DNA of 64,000 bases from positions 34,629,194 to 34,693,193 of the forward strand of contig OY735220.1 of assembly GCA_963457665.1 (NCBI GenBank). The letters are read 5' to 3'. Made by a program: the position numbers and the translations under genes. Below the pieces are notes generated by a model. It was not told the DNA's origin, searched no databases, and saw nothing but the letters and a program-made list of their open reading frames with translations. This DNA is from Thysanoteuthis rhombus. Lineage: Eukaryota > Mollusca > Cephalopoda > Oegopsida > Thysanoteuthidae. Shown one piece after another: positions 5,016 through 62,030 of the stretch; positions within the stretch are counted from its first letter, which is position 1, and each line of letters starts with the position of its first letter.

Positions 5016-5105
<90 letters not shown>

Positions 5106-5106
5106 G

Positions 5107-5168
<62 letters not shown>

Positions 5169-5219
5169 CATATATATATATATGTATATATGTAATATCC
5201 AATTATATATACACACACG

Positions 5220-5269
<50 letters not shown>

Positions 5270-5274
5270 CCAAT

Positions 5275-5297
<23 letters not shown>
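5016..5297. repeat. Compound (TA)n / (CA)n microsatellite
   Basis: Long TA runs with ACATA, GTGTGTG and TATTCAT interruptions end in a (CA)n run at 5276-5297. A short duplicated spacer (AATATCCAAT) occurs at about 5193 and 5266. Confidence 0.95.
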
Positions 5298-5305
<8 letters not shown>

Positions 5306-5309
<4 letters not shown>

Positions 5310-5545
5310 TCTTACATTCAGCAGGAGGCCTCTAGTAGCCCTGACAACAAAACTTACCCACAATGCATAGCCCCTGGCAGTGGACTCTGGTTCCACATGG
5401 TACATTTTAATTCACACTCACACAACACACACCACTGATGATGGGAAGAATCCCGAAACATGTATGGACTATTGACATATAAGGATTAATAAACCTTACC
5501 ACCAAAAACTTCACTCCCGAGTCTGTCTCACTCTGTAAAGTACAC

Positions 5546-5546
<1 letters not shown>
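5306..5546 (+). mobile_element. Hammerhead-bearing dispersed repeat, copy 1
   Basis: About 240 bp between two (TA)n tracts is nearly identical to the reverse complement of 56101-56342. It starts ATTCTTACATTCAGCAGGAG and ends AAAGTACACATTA. It carries a hammerhead-ribozyme-like core at 5432-5467. Penelope-like retroelements and retrozymes are known to carry hammerheads in their terminal repeats, so this may be a fragment of such an element. No protein coding was found in it. Confidence 0.6.
5432..5467 (+). ncRNA. Hammerhead-ribozyme-like core
   Basis: The order is CCA (5432-5434), CTGATGA (5435-5441), one extra T, GGGA-AGAA-TCCC hairpin (5443-5454), GAAA (5455-5458), then the palindrome ACATGT (5458-5463), A and TGG (5465-5467). 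CTGATGA and GAAA are the two conserved hammerhead boxes, and GGGA/TCCC would be helix II. The palindrome could form helix III between two copies, giving a GTA cleavage triplet, and TGG pairs with CCA as a short helix I. The extra T before helix II and the weak helix I depart from the consensus, so activity is unproven. Confidence 0.45.

Positions 5547-5622
<76 letters not shown>
5547..5622. repeat. (TA)n microsatellite
   Basis: A perfect or near-perfect TA run of about 37 units directly abuts the right end of the hammerhead repeat. Confidence 0.95.
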
Positions 5623-5628
<6 letters not shown>

Positions 5629-5649
5629 AAACTATTTGAAATGGCCTAC

Positions 5650-5700
5650 CGTTATTACACAGAGAATGAGTCACTTGGCCTAGACAACGCAAATAGATGA
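5650..5700 (-). repeat. SINE-3 tail fragment
   Basis: The block CGTTATTACACAGAGAATGA followed by GTCACTTGGCCTAGACAACG matches the reverse complement of the tail of the SINE at 55785-55950 (TTATGCTGTCTAGGGAAAGT to GTGTAATAAC). The tRNA-like head is absent. Confidence 0.5.
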
Positions 5701-42129: not shown

Positions 42130-42200
<71 letters not shown>

Positions 42201-42202
42201 TA
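42130..42202. repeat. (TA)n microsatellite
   Basis: TA run with one ACATA interruption, abutting the TIRS element. Confidence 0.95.
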
Positions 42203-42577
42203 TAGTGTCATCTACAGACAGCTGTTTTGATGTATTACATCTCTTCAGTGTGGCCATAGCCTTTCCATTATCCAATCCAGTACTGCGAGGCAGAATTGAA
42301 AACTTCGCTTTAGACCCATAGGCCGATATCCTACCTCTGGACTACGGAACTGGACAGGCAGTAAGGCTGAATTTAAGCGTTATATTTAAATTACACAGAA
42401 ATGCCTCATTCAGCAGAGTGCTCAATTCCTATTGGAGAGCATTGCATAAGCTTACAGTGGATGAGTTACCTCACTTAAAGATATATATCCCACTTGGTGG
42501 CACTGGGTGGACATCGAGTCTATAGCCACACTGAAGAGTCGTAATATGACGACACAGCTGTCTGTGGATGACATTAC
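42203..42577. mobile_element. TIRS element, copy 1: 57-bp TIRs around a tRNA-like core
   Basis: The left TIR (42203-42259) begins TAGTGTCATCTACAGACAGC. The right TIR (42520-42577), read on the minus strand, begins TGTAATGTCATCCACAGACA. Both continue GCTGT, TATTAC, CTCTTCAGTGTGGCYATAG. Inside, the minus strand of about 42275-42350 resembles a tRNA head (CCAGTTCCGTAGTCCAGAGG, AGGATATCGG, a TTCAATTCTGCC-like B-box). No transposase frame. It is a non-autonomous DNA element, a SINE captured between inverted repeats, or a fusion of two inverted SINE copies. Confidence 0.6.

Positions 42578-56025: not shown

Positions 56026-56100
<75 letters not shown>
56026..56100. repeat. (TA)n microsatellite
   Basis: TA run directly abutting the second hammerhead-bearing repeat. 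Confidence 0.95.
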
Positions 56101-56102
<2 letters not shown>

Positions 56103-56342
56103 GTGTACTTTATAGAGTGAGACAGACTCGGGAGTGAAGTTTTTGGTGGTAAGGTTTATTAATCCTTATATGTCAATAGTCCATACATGTTTCGGGATTT
56201 CTCCCATCATCAGTGGTGCGTGTTGTGTGAGTGTGGATTAAAATGTACCATGTGGAACCAGAGTCCACTGCCAGGGACTATGCATTGTGGGTAAGTTTTG
56301 TTGTCAGGGCTACTAGATGCCTCCTGCTGAATGTAAGAATGA
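56101..56342 (-). mobile_element. Hammerhead-bearing dispersed repeat, copy 2
   Basis: The reverse complement is nearly identical to 5306-5546, from ATTCTTACATTCAGCAGGAG to AAAGTACACAT. In minus orientation its 3' end abuts a (TA)n tract, as in copy 1. The minus frame QCIVPGSGLWFHMVHFN is open in part but short. Confidence 0.65.
56181..56216 (-). ncRNA. Hammerhead-ribozyme-like core, copy 2
   Basis: On the minus strand: CCA, CTGATGA (56213-56207), extra T, GGGA-GAAA-TCCC hairpin (56205-56194), GAAA, ACATGT, A, TGG. Helix II is unchanged, but its loop is GAAA (a GNRA tetraloop) rather than AGAA as in copy 1. CCA/TGG pairing is conserved. Confidence 0.45.
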
Positions 56343-56908
56343 CCAGCAGGTATTGGGATTTTGGTAAAGCAGCAGCAGTTTGTCTTGGGGAGGGCAGAGT
56401 GTGTCAAGGTAGGGGGTAGTGATGTGGAGATGGATGTTTTGGTATGATTGGGATAGTGTAGGAGGAGGGGTGGTGGGGTCGAGGAGCTACATAGGTATCA
56501 ACCTTAAAAGTTACTGAAAATGTTTTGGCTATGAGTTGAACAGGGGTTATAACAGGCTAAGGTGAAGTTTTTCCTATGGGTCTAGGTGACTTTGAAGCTT
56601 CCATTATTGAATGTGTCTAAGATGTGGGTGTGAGGATATTAATGGTAGGAGTTGTGTGTATTAGTGTTCTGTGTGGTGAGGGTTGTTCAGTTTAGTATTT
56701 TGATGGTGTGTAGTAGTGTTTTAGTAAGTTTTCTAAACTGCTTACTAGTGTTGGAATCAGGTTTTCTAACCCCCCTTCCATATTTAGTGGTAGGGGGCTT
56801 TCCTCATTTTTTGGTAGAGTGTGTGTGTGGGTTGATGTAGGGGTTACCTGCTGGTCAGGGTGTTTGCCTGGGTCTTCAGGATGCTTTCGAAGGGTCAATG
56901 TGATGGGT
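56343..56908. other. GT-rich unassigned segment
   Basis: G/T-rich plus strand (GGGTGGTGGGGTCG, GTGTGTGGGTTG). It follows the hammerhead repeat and may be more of the same element. Short plus frames (56652-56840) are unsupported. Confidence 0.3.
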
Positions 56909-58235: not shown

Positions 58236-59095
58236 GTTTTATAGCCCTATATCTTAGCTTGGGCCACAGCTAATACTTCAGTGCCTGACATGCGAAGCTG
58301 TGGTTTGGCTTTCAACCTTAAATCAACAAATCTTATGATTCACCAAAATTCCGTCTGTCCGTCCGTCTGCACGTATGCGACAATCTACTGCAAAACCGCG
58401 AAGGATAACCGAATAAAATTTTCTTTGCTTACCAATGAGACCCCGGGAAATGTTTTTTTTTGACAAATCAGTTCCTGAAAATCCCACCAAATATATTTTA
58501 GGGTCTTACGATGAAAATTCAAAAATGGAAACATTTTTATGTCTGCCTATTTTCAGCTACTGTCCGCTAACTATGCTAAAAATGGCTTATTTCCATAGCA
58601 AGCGGGGACTTTTATCGTTCGTCAAGAGGGGGTGAAAGTAAGACTAGTAGGTACTTTGGAATCGGTCTTGGAGAGGGGCTGTGTGTAAGAAGAATAATGA
58701 CTTTCTTTATATCATGTACGTGCGGAGATCGCAAAAAAAACCCCAGAAAGTCATAGATATAAGTTTTCATGAAAAAATTAAATTGAACAATATTTTATTC
58801 CCGCCAATTTATTTTACTAATTCTAATTTTTGACTGCAATTTATTGTTGTTGTTTTGTCAATCTTAAAGTGAAATCTTGCGTAACTACTCGGCTTGAAAC
58901 AAAATTGTGAAATTTGCTTGTCAAATTCATTCAACTTCTTTAAGAACACAAAACAACGAAATGAACGACAAAAATAAAATACCATTCAAATTTTCTCTGC
59001 ACAAATTGGAAACAAGGACATTAGTCCAACGATACGTCTATATTCCACCTGCCATTACTACTTCAAACACTGAAAAGGTTCATATTCAATATATA
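58236..59095. other. Unassigned sequence
   Basis: 58340-58700 contains TCCGTCTGTCCGTCCGTCTG and AGCAAGCGGGGAC, reminiscent of an old interspersed repeat. Short plus frames (58281-58635, 58907-59248) lack support; the last reads through the TIRS copy. Confidence 0.35.
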
Positions 59096-59098
59096 TGT

Positions 59099-60344
<1,246 letters not shown>

Positions 60345-60550: not shown

Positions 60551-60985
<435 letters not shown>

Positions 60986-61411: not shown

Positions 61412-61448
61412 CAAGTAGTTGTTTTACTGGGGTTCTGGATTTGAGTGT

Positions 61449-62030
61449 TCTCCATGAGACCCTCAAAAGAAGAAGAAATCAAGCGAAGAATCACACTAGG
61501 ATGGCAAGCCTTTGGCAGAGCTAGCTCAACCTTCAAAAATGATAAGATCCCATTAATCCTAAAGAGAAGGGTGTATAACCAATGCATCCTCCCAATAGTC
61601 ACTTATGGAGCTGAAACATGGAACCTAACCAAGAGACAGACCCGTAAGCTGAGAACCATGCAACGTGCACATGAAAGAATAATGCTGAGCCTCACATGGA
61701 GAGACCACAAGACAGCACAGTACATCCGAGAAAAGACAAGACTTAGGGACATCATAGAATCTATTAAAAATCTCAAATGGCGGTGGGCTGGCCATGTTAC
61801 AAGAATGGTAGACAATCGATGGACATCGCGACTCACAACATGGATCCCCCGAGACCACATGCGCAACCGAGGCCAGCAAAGTGTTAGATGGAGAAACGAG
61901 CTAGACAAGTTCAGGAAGTACTGGCTCCGTGACGCCCATGATAGGGAAGTGTGGCAAATCCTGGGGAAGGTCTATGTCCAACGACGGACGCTAAAAGACT
62001 GATGATGATGATGATGATGATGATGATCAC
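61449..62030 (+). mobile_element. RTE-type LINE 3' end, copy 8, longest intact C-terminal frame
   Basis: Homology to the 24.5-kb copy starts at TCTCCATGAGACCCTC (about 61449). The frame is open without stops to 62002 (185 residues from an ATG at 61445). Blocks in order: PSKEEEIKRRITLGWQAFGR, ASSTFKNDKIPLILKRRVYN, QCILPIVTYGAETWNLTKRQ, RTMQRAHERIMLSLTWRDHK, RDIIESIKNLKWRWAGHVTR, WTSRLTTWIPRDHMRNRG, VRWRNELDKFRKYWLRDAHD, REVWQILGKVYVQRRTLKD. This is the region C-terminal to the reverse transcriptase catalytic core, so it is 5'-truncated and cannot retrotranspose. The stop TGA begins a (GAT)n tail to about 62029. Confidence 0.85.

Follow-up and report, generated by a model that had tools for sequence, protein, structure and literature searches.

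A probable minimal hammerhead ribozyme motif in the terminal repeats of a Penelope-like element from Thysanoteuthis rhombus

Introduction

The question raised by the locus described here is whether a series of short sequence boxes within a dispersed repeat of the cephalopod Thysanoteuthis rhombus represents a hammerhead ribozyme and, if so, to which kind of mobile element this ribozyme belongs. The boxes span 36 nt at positions 5432-5467 (plus strand) of a stretch of 64,000 nucleotides (assembly GCA_963457665.1, contig OY735220.1, positions 34,629,194 to 34,693,193), which was analyzed as a whole and is referred to as the window. An earlier note on this DNA had read them as the core of a dimeric hammerhead like those known from Penelope-like elements (PLEs) and retrozymes. 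Minimal type I hammerhead ribozymes in the terminal repeats (pLTRs) of PLEs were reportedly described by Cervera and de la Pena in 2014 and by Lunse, Weinberg and Breaker in 2017. According to the sections of later articles drawn on here, these minimal motifs are arranged in tandem within the pLTRs and may cleave as dimers (PMC7761336, PMC6155905), and one review states that the role of the hammerhead in PLEs is still a mystery (PMC7761336). The motif, its genomic copies, the element that hosts it and the junctions of its insertions were considered together, and the explanations competing for the same observations are weighed below.

Anatomy of the Motif and Its Frequency by Chance

The motif opens with CCA (5432-5434), the 5' strand of a putative helix I, and continues with the core box CTGATGA (5435-5441), a single extra T at the junction of core box and helix II (5442) and a hairpin composed of GGGA (5443-5446), the loop AGAA (5447-5450) and TCCC (5451-5454). 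In other copies the loop reads GAAA or AAAA, and a sublineage carries GAGA and TCTC as the two arms. The second core box, GAAA (5455-5458), overlaps by one letter with the palindrome ACATGT (5458-5463), the proposed intermolecular helix III, which is followed by an A (5464) and by TGG (5465-5467), the 3' strand of helix I. All these letters and positions are as the earlier note had given them for boxes, hairpin, palindrome, A and TGG. Helix II is flanked by boxes of the forms CUGANGA and GAAA, and an NUH triplet lies 3' of helix III, namely GTA at 5462-5464, which places the predicted cut between 5464 and 5465. A contact between loop I and loop II is impossible in this arrangement, as helix I comprises 3 bp and is open-ended when judged by eye, and in this respect the motif departs from a canonical type I hammerhead.

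A motif search demanded the two boxes together with a U-H site, helices I and II of 3 and 4 bp, and a helix III that is either a palindrome or a hairpin. With these rules, drawn up with the site at 5432-5467 already known, three matches were found on both strands of the window, i.e., 5432-5467 (plus), 56181-56216 (minus) and 59107-59148 (minus); 150 dinucleotide-preserving shuffles of the window gave two matches in total. Two of the three matches belong to one repeat, and the third, at 59107-59148, lies in a different repeat. The strand opposite to 5432-5467 was without a motif match by both similarity and motif search, and exact-pattern scans of viral_contigs and genome_contigs returned none.

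The covariance-model search proposed in the earlier note as a means of refuting it went against the hammerhead. At the gathering threshold, an Rfam search of the whole window gave no hammerhead at 5432-5467, and no hammerhead model matched after relaxation to E<=10 in 241 nt and in 45 nt around the site. The sole relaxed match in 5320-5560, to UCA1 (5326-5395, 21.3 bits with a gathering score of 80, E 0.0036), was taken as chance. Even the different repeat at 59107-59148, which features an ordinary helix II, scored only 20.3 bits with the model Hammerhead_1, below the gathering score of 34, so that the Rfam models seem insensitive to minimal motifs.

The Host Repeat and Its Penelope-Like Element

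Comparison with genome copies characterizes the host repeat as a PLE's 3' terminal repeat in 5'-truncated form, composed of pLTR and tail (5309..5550, plus). The tail extends over 86 nt from the predicted cut to the 3' end of the insertion (5465..5550) and is succeeded by a (TA)n tract at the 3' junction (5551..5623), with a TA/CA microsatellite on the 5' side. Thousands of copies are present in the genome (2.73 Gb searched, 514 contigs), which agrees with the dispersed, TA-flanked repeat claimed before. The search with the 242-nt repeat in its own genome gave 2260 first-look candidates, of which 40 were scored, all of them listed at 99% or 100%. A second pLTR copy of 242 nt with 97% identity was found by self-comparison of the window (56098..56339, minus); it harbors the match at 56181..56216, with GAAA as its loop. 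Upstream of it (56340..56900, minus), the middle of a PLE is joined to sequence from the end of the ORF, an internal deletion as judged by eye against the loci L031 and L006. As a further observation in this part of the window, an open frame of 185 aa at 61445-62002 (plus) presumably resembles the C-terminus of a reverse-transcriptase protein of the LINE type.

The assignment to a PLE is derived from copies that extend farther in the 5' direction. In the loci L031-L036 the repeat runs into PLE coding sequence, and in L031 the N-terminal frame (5024-5698) is followed in the 3' direction by a frame of 707 aa, the 242-nt repeat and (TA)n. The 707-aa frame matches RVT_1 with an E value of 6.7e-14, as expected of a PLE reverse transcriptase, and GIY-YIG with an E value of 0.0035 and 18.1 bits, which is under the curated cut-off of 22.6. 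A GIY-YIG match is also present in L032, and three loci with an open frame of 809 aa reach 24.6 bits and hence exceed this cut-off. A PDB sequence search with the 707-aa frame yielded nothing at E<=0.1.

The motif additionally occurs on the 5' side of the coding sequence. Among 29 loci found by the N-terminus (L038-L066), ten have a motif 370 nt 5' of the reference point; in three of these ten, the internally deleted L044, L050 and L060, it is present downstream too. Moreover, contig C15 bears one full-length arrangement: exact GAGA/TCTC motifs at C15:2933261 and 2937356, in direct orientation and separated by 4,095 bp, enclose an N-terminus match at C15:2933631. Since the motif is located 3' of the ORF as well as 5' of the N-terminal frame, it belongs to both terminal repeats, and pLTRs at both ends are in turn a property of PLEs. 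Detailed reading of four loci gave the order motif, tail and leader; some 100 nt 3' of the motif, three of them have an ATG, whereas this codon is mutated in L044.

Internally deleted derivatives of the PLE, apparently in at least two size classes, were noticed among the fetched loci (L044, L049, L050, L059, L060 and others). Shorter motif pairs, 1,856 and 1,857 bp apart (G000:C11:18605261/18607118 and C17:31510646/31512502), likewise look internally deleted. For other PLE families, approached via GIY-YIG, the hammerhead pattern was present in none of 16 loci, which were hand-picked from 150 scored and searched over about 1.4 kb 3' of each match; these loci, several of them interrupted by stop codons, are perhaps not PLEs at all. 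The loci L090-L095, L097-L099, L101 and L102 represent a decayed repeat family whose frame is GIY-YIG-like (AGVYAIPCKDCDKIYIGETSR-like), without a hammerhead by pattern within about 1.4 kb downstream.

Conservation and Covariation of Helix II

The spaced pattern CTGATGAT-N(11-16)-CGAAACATGTATGG is matched 1729+1754 times in the genome, i.e., 3,483 times, with no match for its backwards control; as the copies are related by descent, this figure gives a copy number and not independent evidence. A set of 53 motif copies was assembled, with up to six substitutions tolerated across the 36 nt and with eight loci that duplicate the window or L031-L036 excluded from this count as well as from the comparison of diversity. 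Both boxes are unchanged in all of the 53, the copies having been fetched as those most similar to the 242-nt repeat or the N-terminus, and the loss of the boxes among other copies, named in the earlier note as evidence against the motif, is accordingly not seen. The same holds true for the T before helix II, regarded there as non-canonical: it was confirmed and is common to 53 of 53 copies, so that it cannot be a decay of the window copy alone. The 3-bp helix I is changed in one copy of the 53, and for the palindrome a change was likewise counted in one.

Across 58 matches, the diversity amounts to 0.0046 in the 32 non-loop sites of the motif vs. 0.021 in the remaining 206 sites of the repeat. 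One of 136 stretches of the same shape is as low as the non-loop motif, or three of 136 if each stretch drops its two most variable sites, the loop having been left out of this comparison only once its variability was known. With the loop included, the mean diversity of the motif rises to 0.031, and 164 of 207 stretches are as low or lower.

The arms of helix II vary in a restricted manner. Among the 100 matches listed of the 3,483, GGGA/TCCC was found 82 times, GAGA/TCTC eight times, GGGA/TCTC six times and four other combinations once each. Pairing is realized in 397 of 400 cells of these 100 listed matches, a value reached by none of 10,000 shuffles of the 3' arm in a test in which the C next to GAAA is fixed by the pattern and the shuffling ignores descent. 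Genome-wide counts for copies with a 4-nt loop were 202 for GAGA/TCTC, 61 for GGGA/TCTC, 26 for GAGA/TCCC, 23 for GGGA/TTCC and 44 for GGAA/TCCC. One-sided changes comprise 61 G-U vs. 26 A-C at pair 2 and 23 G-U vs. 44 A-C at pair 3 (31 when a cluster of 13 copies on contig C29 is set aside), and no clear preference for wobbles over mismatches emerges from these one-sided changes of helix II. Since mismatches at pair 3 are at least as frequent as wobbles, decay seems to be unconstrained in most copies. The cluster itself, 13 of the 44 GGAA/TCCC copies within one 4-Mb stretch (G000:C29:46249503-50287331), suggests the local duplication of one copy.

The double change from GGGA/TCCC to GAGA/TCTC, common in comparison with its rare mismatched half, is probably one event that was inherited by a propagating sublineage. 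All three checked loci with the 809-aa frame, which had been chosen for a GIY-YIG match inside an open frame, feature, at their 3' end, a helix II of GAGA and TCTC with a loop of 5 nt, and thus stand outside the 202 copies counted above. In the stretches fetched for these loci (L103, L105, L107), no 5' motif was found; the copy in L107 begins 5 nt past the predicted cut, and the stretches of L103 and L105 consist of unrelated sequence. The compensatory change of helix II at the three loci suggests that the fold mattered while copies were made.

A Second Hammerhead-Like Repeat Family

The third match, at 59107-59148 (minus), is a second candidate for a minimal type I hammerhead, situated in a repeat of approximately 59095-59300 and characterized by a GTC site and a 5-bp helix I. 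Its layout is CCACA / CTGAAGA / GTTGTAATACAA(T or C) / GAAA / CAGCTGTC / TGTGG, with the palindrome ACAGCTGT. Copy comparison revealed two further copies of the repeat at 42193-42430 and 60680-60901 (both minus), the former with an A-U variant of helix II. A genome search gave 6,091 first-look candidates, of which 40 were scored, and 20 copies fetched from the 40 scored places were aligned with the three places of the window. In these 23 copies helix II is paired to 99.1%, one pair being changed from U-A to A-U in four of them. For all cells, 97.4% were paired vs. 94.7% in shuffles, and covariation reached 0.131 vs. 0.087; in each case one of 500 shuffles was as high. Pairs changed on both sides and further pair types were not above the shuffles in the same 23 copies. 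The A-U variant has 2,131 exact copies in the genome, with none for the backwards control, and at least three same-strand pairs, spaced by 289, 314 and 311 bp, occur among the 100 places listed (G000:C1:2623363/2623652, C2:20877747/20878061 and C2:72839770/72840081), as in tandem retrozyme dimers.

Hammerhead_1 was also matched at E<=1 in five of the 20 fetched copies, with 22.7 to 25.1 bits and hence below the gathering score; higher-scoring Rfam lines for the fetched copies concern microRNA and other families, mostly on TA tracts. The copies end in AT- or TA-rich sequence soon after the motif. A tRNA finder gave no tRNA in the window and ARAGORN none in the 20 copies, so that the term tRNA-like rests on A- and B-box-like stretches, with one to three mismatches in four copies tried, and on a TCCAGT/ACTGGA pairing seen by eye. 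A PLE sharing the tail of the repeat at 59107-59148 was sought in the 16 GIY-YIG loci, without similarity. This repeat resembles the short hammerhead repeats known as retrozymes. The movement of retrozymes by PLEs is a published proposal (PMC7229834, PMC7761336, in the sections drawn on), and the occurrence in one genome of two hammerhead families with similar TA-rich ends offers a means of testing this idea.

Predicted Folds and Alternative Explanations

According to energy prediction, the minimum-energy fold of the monomer is a rod of -8.3 kcal/mol in which three letters of the core box are paired, and the catalytic monomer fold without helix III is predicted at -4.1 kcal/mol. A hammerhead dimer with a shared ACAUGU helix reaches -14.8 kcal/mol, with -19.4 kcal/mol for the best dimer. 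A dimeric hammerhead would thus be allowed by the prediction, not favored.

An improbable alternative, and the one to be considered first, is that the motif is an imperfect inverted repeat whose RNA forms a rod (CCA/UGG, AUG/CAU, UGGGA/UCCCG) serving as a protein-binding or reverse-transcription signal, the hammerhead order being a non-catalytic relic. This rod is the predicted minimum-energy fold and has helices I and II in common with the hammerhead, so that covariation cannot tell the one from the other. In addition, the hammerhead of an anole PLE was reported, in the sections of that study drawn on here, to be inactive without protein, cutting only with protein present, and to be dispensable for insertion in vitro (PMC11167929). 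Yet only part of CTGATGA and GAAA is paired in the rod, and both boxes are unchanged in 53 of 53 copies, young and related as these are. The rod moreover leaves unexplained why a UH triplet and a palindrome stand in hammerhead register, and why the same layout recurs with other helix letters in the repeat at 59107-59148.

Considerably less probable still is that the motif belongs to a non-autonomous retrozyme, a short tandem hammerhead repeat, instead of a PLE. The many short non-coding copies, as well as internally deleted copies with a motif at both ends, would suit such an element, yet its case is already contradicted: L031-L036 extend into PLE coding sequence (RVT_1 and GIY-YIG in L031, GIY-YIG in L032), the repeat stands on both sides of the ORF in other loci, and the 5' starts vary, 27 of them being distinct among 30. 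A metazoan retrozyme is a short non-coding unit without PLE coding sequence, and the element at 5432-5467 is not of this form. Finally, a chance arrangement is scarcely credible, short as the boxes are and without covariance-model support, in view of two matches in 150 shuffles of the window, 3,483 matches vs. none genome-wide (in copies related by descent), a compensatory change in a propagating sublineage and a PLE context that already contradicts it.

The preferred reading is that the 36-nt motif is a minimal type I hammerhead of a PLE, located here in the 3' pLTR, that the whole element features both pLTRs, and that the window copy is a 5'-truncated PLE insertion between TA-rich microsatellites; to this joint reading a probability of roughly 0.85 is given. 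The dimeric, Penelope-like hammerhead of the earlier note is supported by a pLTR linked to RVT_1 and GIY-YIG, by motifs at both ends, by conserved boxes and by covariation of helix II. The mention of retrozymes does not apply to the element at 5432-5467; a separate, retrozyme-like hammerhead family is found elsewhere in the window.

Insertion Junctions and Implications for the Mechanism

The ends of the insertions provide information about the RNA that was copied. Among 30 fetched copies, 27 distinct alignment starts were recorded, one of them being a locus edge and at least L028 breaking inside the element. A TA repeat adjoins the 3' end of 29 of the 30. Leaving aside the copy that starts at a locus edge, 18 of the other 29 are TA-rich in the 5' flank. 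Past the tail, 42 of the 53 motif copies continue into (TA)n, ten into the leader and one otherwise. At the junction, 5' repeats read ACATTAT, followed by the leader ACATACC..., and 3' repeats pass into the TA repeat. The window copy ends at 5550, 86 nt past the predicted cut. Motif-bearing 3' ends about 86 nt past this position indicate that the template RNA had either not been cut at this site or had been religated after cutting, as such an end cannot come from linear RNA cut at the 3' motif; since the copies were selected by similarity to the whole repeat, insertions ending at the predicted cut would escape notice.

Likewise, 30 leader-bearing copies showed no accumulation of 5' ends at the predicted cut, and none of them starts exactly there. 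Four lie at +5, +12, +12 and +36, 16 at +116 to +330, and ten copies read through, the loci having been selected by N-terminus content, which limits how far 3' the starts can fall. The predicted cut as a simple determinant of 5' ends was rejected because of the absent pile-up. From 3' ends about 86 nt past the cut and 5' ends without a pile-up it follows, for the copies examined, that cleavage sets neither insertion end in a simple linear way. The 3' ends match the situation described for the Anolis element, in which reverse transcription is initiated internally.

A mechanism in keeping with the preferred reading would start from a transcript with two motifs, derived from the 5' and 3' pLTR or from tandem copies. 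The two ACATGT palindromes may pair as a common helix III and the CCA of each motif with the TGG of the other, whereupon the RNA would be cut after GUA. Reverse transcription might then begin inside the downstream leader on a TA-rich nick, as suggested by the anole PLE, on a template that would be either uncut at the 3' motif or cut and then religated. A tentative and rather doubtful extension is that a single PLE-type machinery is responsible for copying the PLE as well as the tRNA-like, hammerhead-tailed repeats of about 300 bp via cut and religated circular RNA, with (TA)n-primed reverse transcription starting downstream of the sealed cut and going round the circle. If true, a circular template would explain the intact motif and tail in insertions as well as partial tandems. 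Thousands of young copies with junctions at the base level already constrain the role of hammerheads in PLEs.

Comparison with Known Systems

Neither of the two hammerhead families was found under a name in the literature searched. By the descriptions that reviews give of published PLE hammerheads, the motif at 5432-5467 resembles these in being minimal, in lacking a proper helix III and in its location in a pLTR, in tandem, with dimers as the proposed form; it differs from them in the extra T before helix II and the helix I of 3 bp.

A further comparison is offered by PAc, the Poseidon element of Anolis carolinensis (PMC11167929, in the sections drawn on). Both elements share a hammerhead at the region of pLTR and ORF, AT-rich targets and 3' ends inside the downstream unit, i.e., the tail. 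In PAc, the ORF begins inside stem II and the cut is located 26 bp into the ORF, whereas here the start of the PLE frame falls roughly 100 nt 3' of the motif, with its ATG mutated in one of the four loci read. An ORF start at stem II of the PAc kind was rejected for the present element, in which the frame from ATGs before stem II stops after 13-14 codons. The same article mentions that self-cleavage of a PLE hammerhead was observed earlier at 3-25 mM Mg2+ (PMC11167929).

With the metazoan non-LTR retrozymes, as portrayed in the parts of PMC7229834 drawn on, the motif has the type I hammerhead, the weak helix III and the occurrence in an animal genome in common; unlike these short tandem non-coding units, the repeat around 5432-5467 belongs to a protein-coding PLE. 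The Penelope families of Adineta vaga, so far as the relevant sections describe them (PMC3846280), likewise display pLTRs as direct repeats, a short 3' tail, 5' truncation and internal deletions. The tail measures 31 bp in the family described there vs. 86 nt past the predicted cut here, and inverted pLTRs are common in Adineta vaga, whereas in L031-L036 the opposite strand lacks the 12-nt core. Taken together, the motif is a well-preserved new case of a kind that is already known, and what is added to it by the present analysis is the family, the compensatory change in helix II and the junction evidence on the template RNA.
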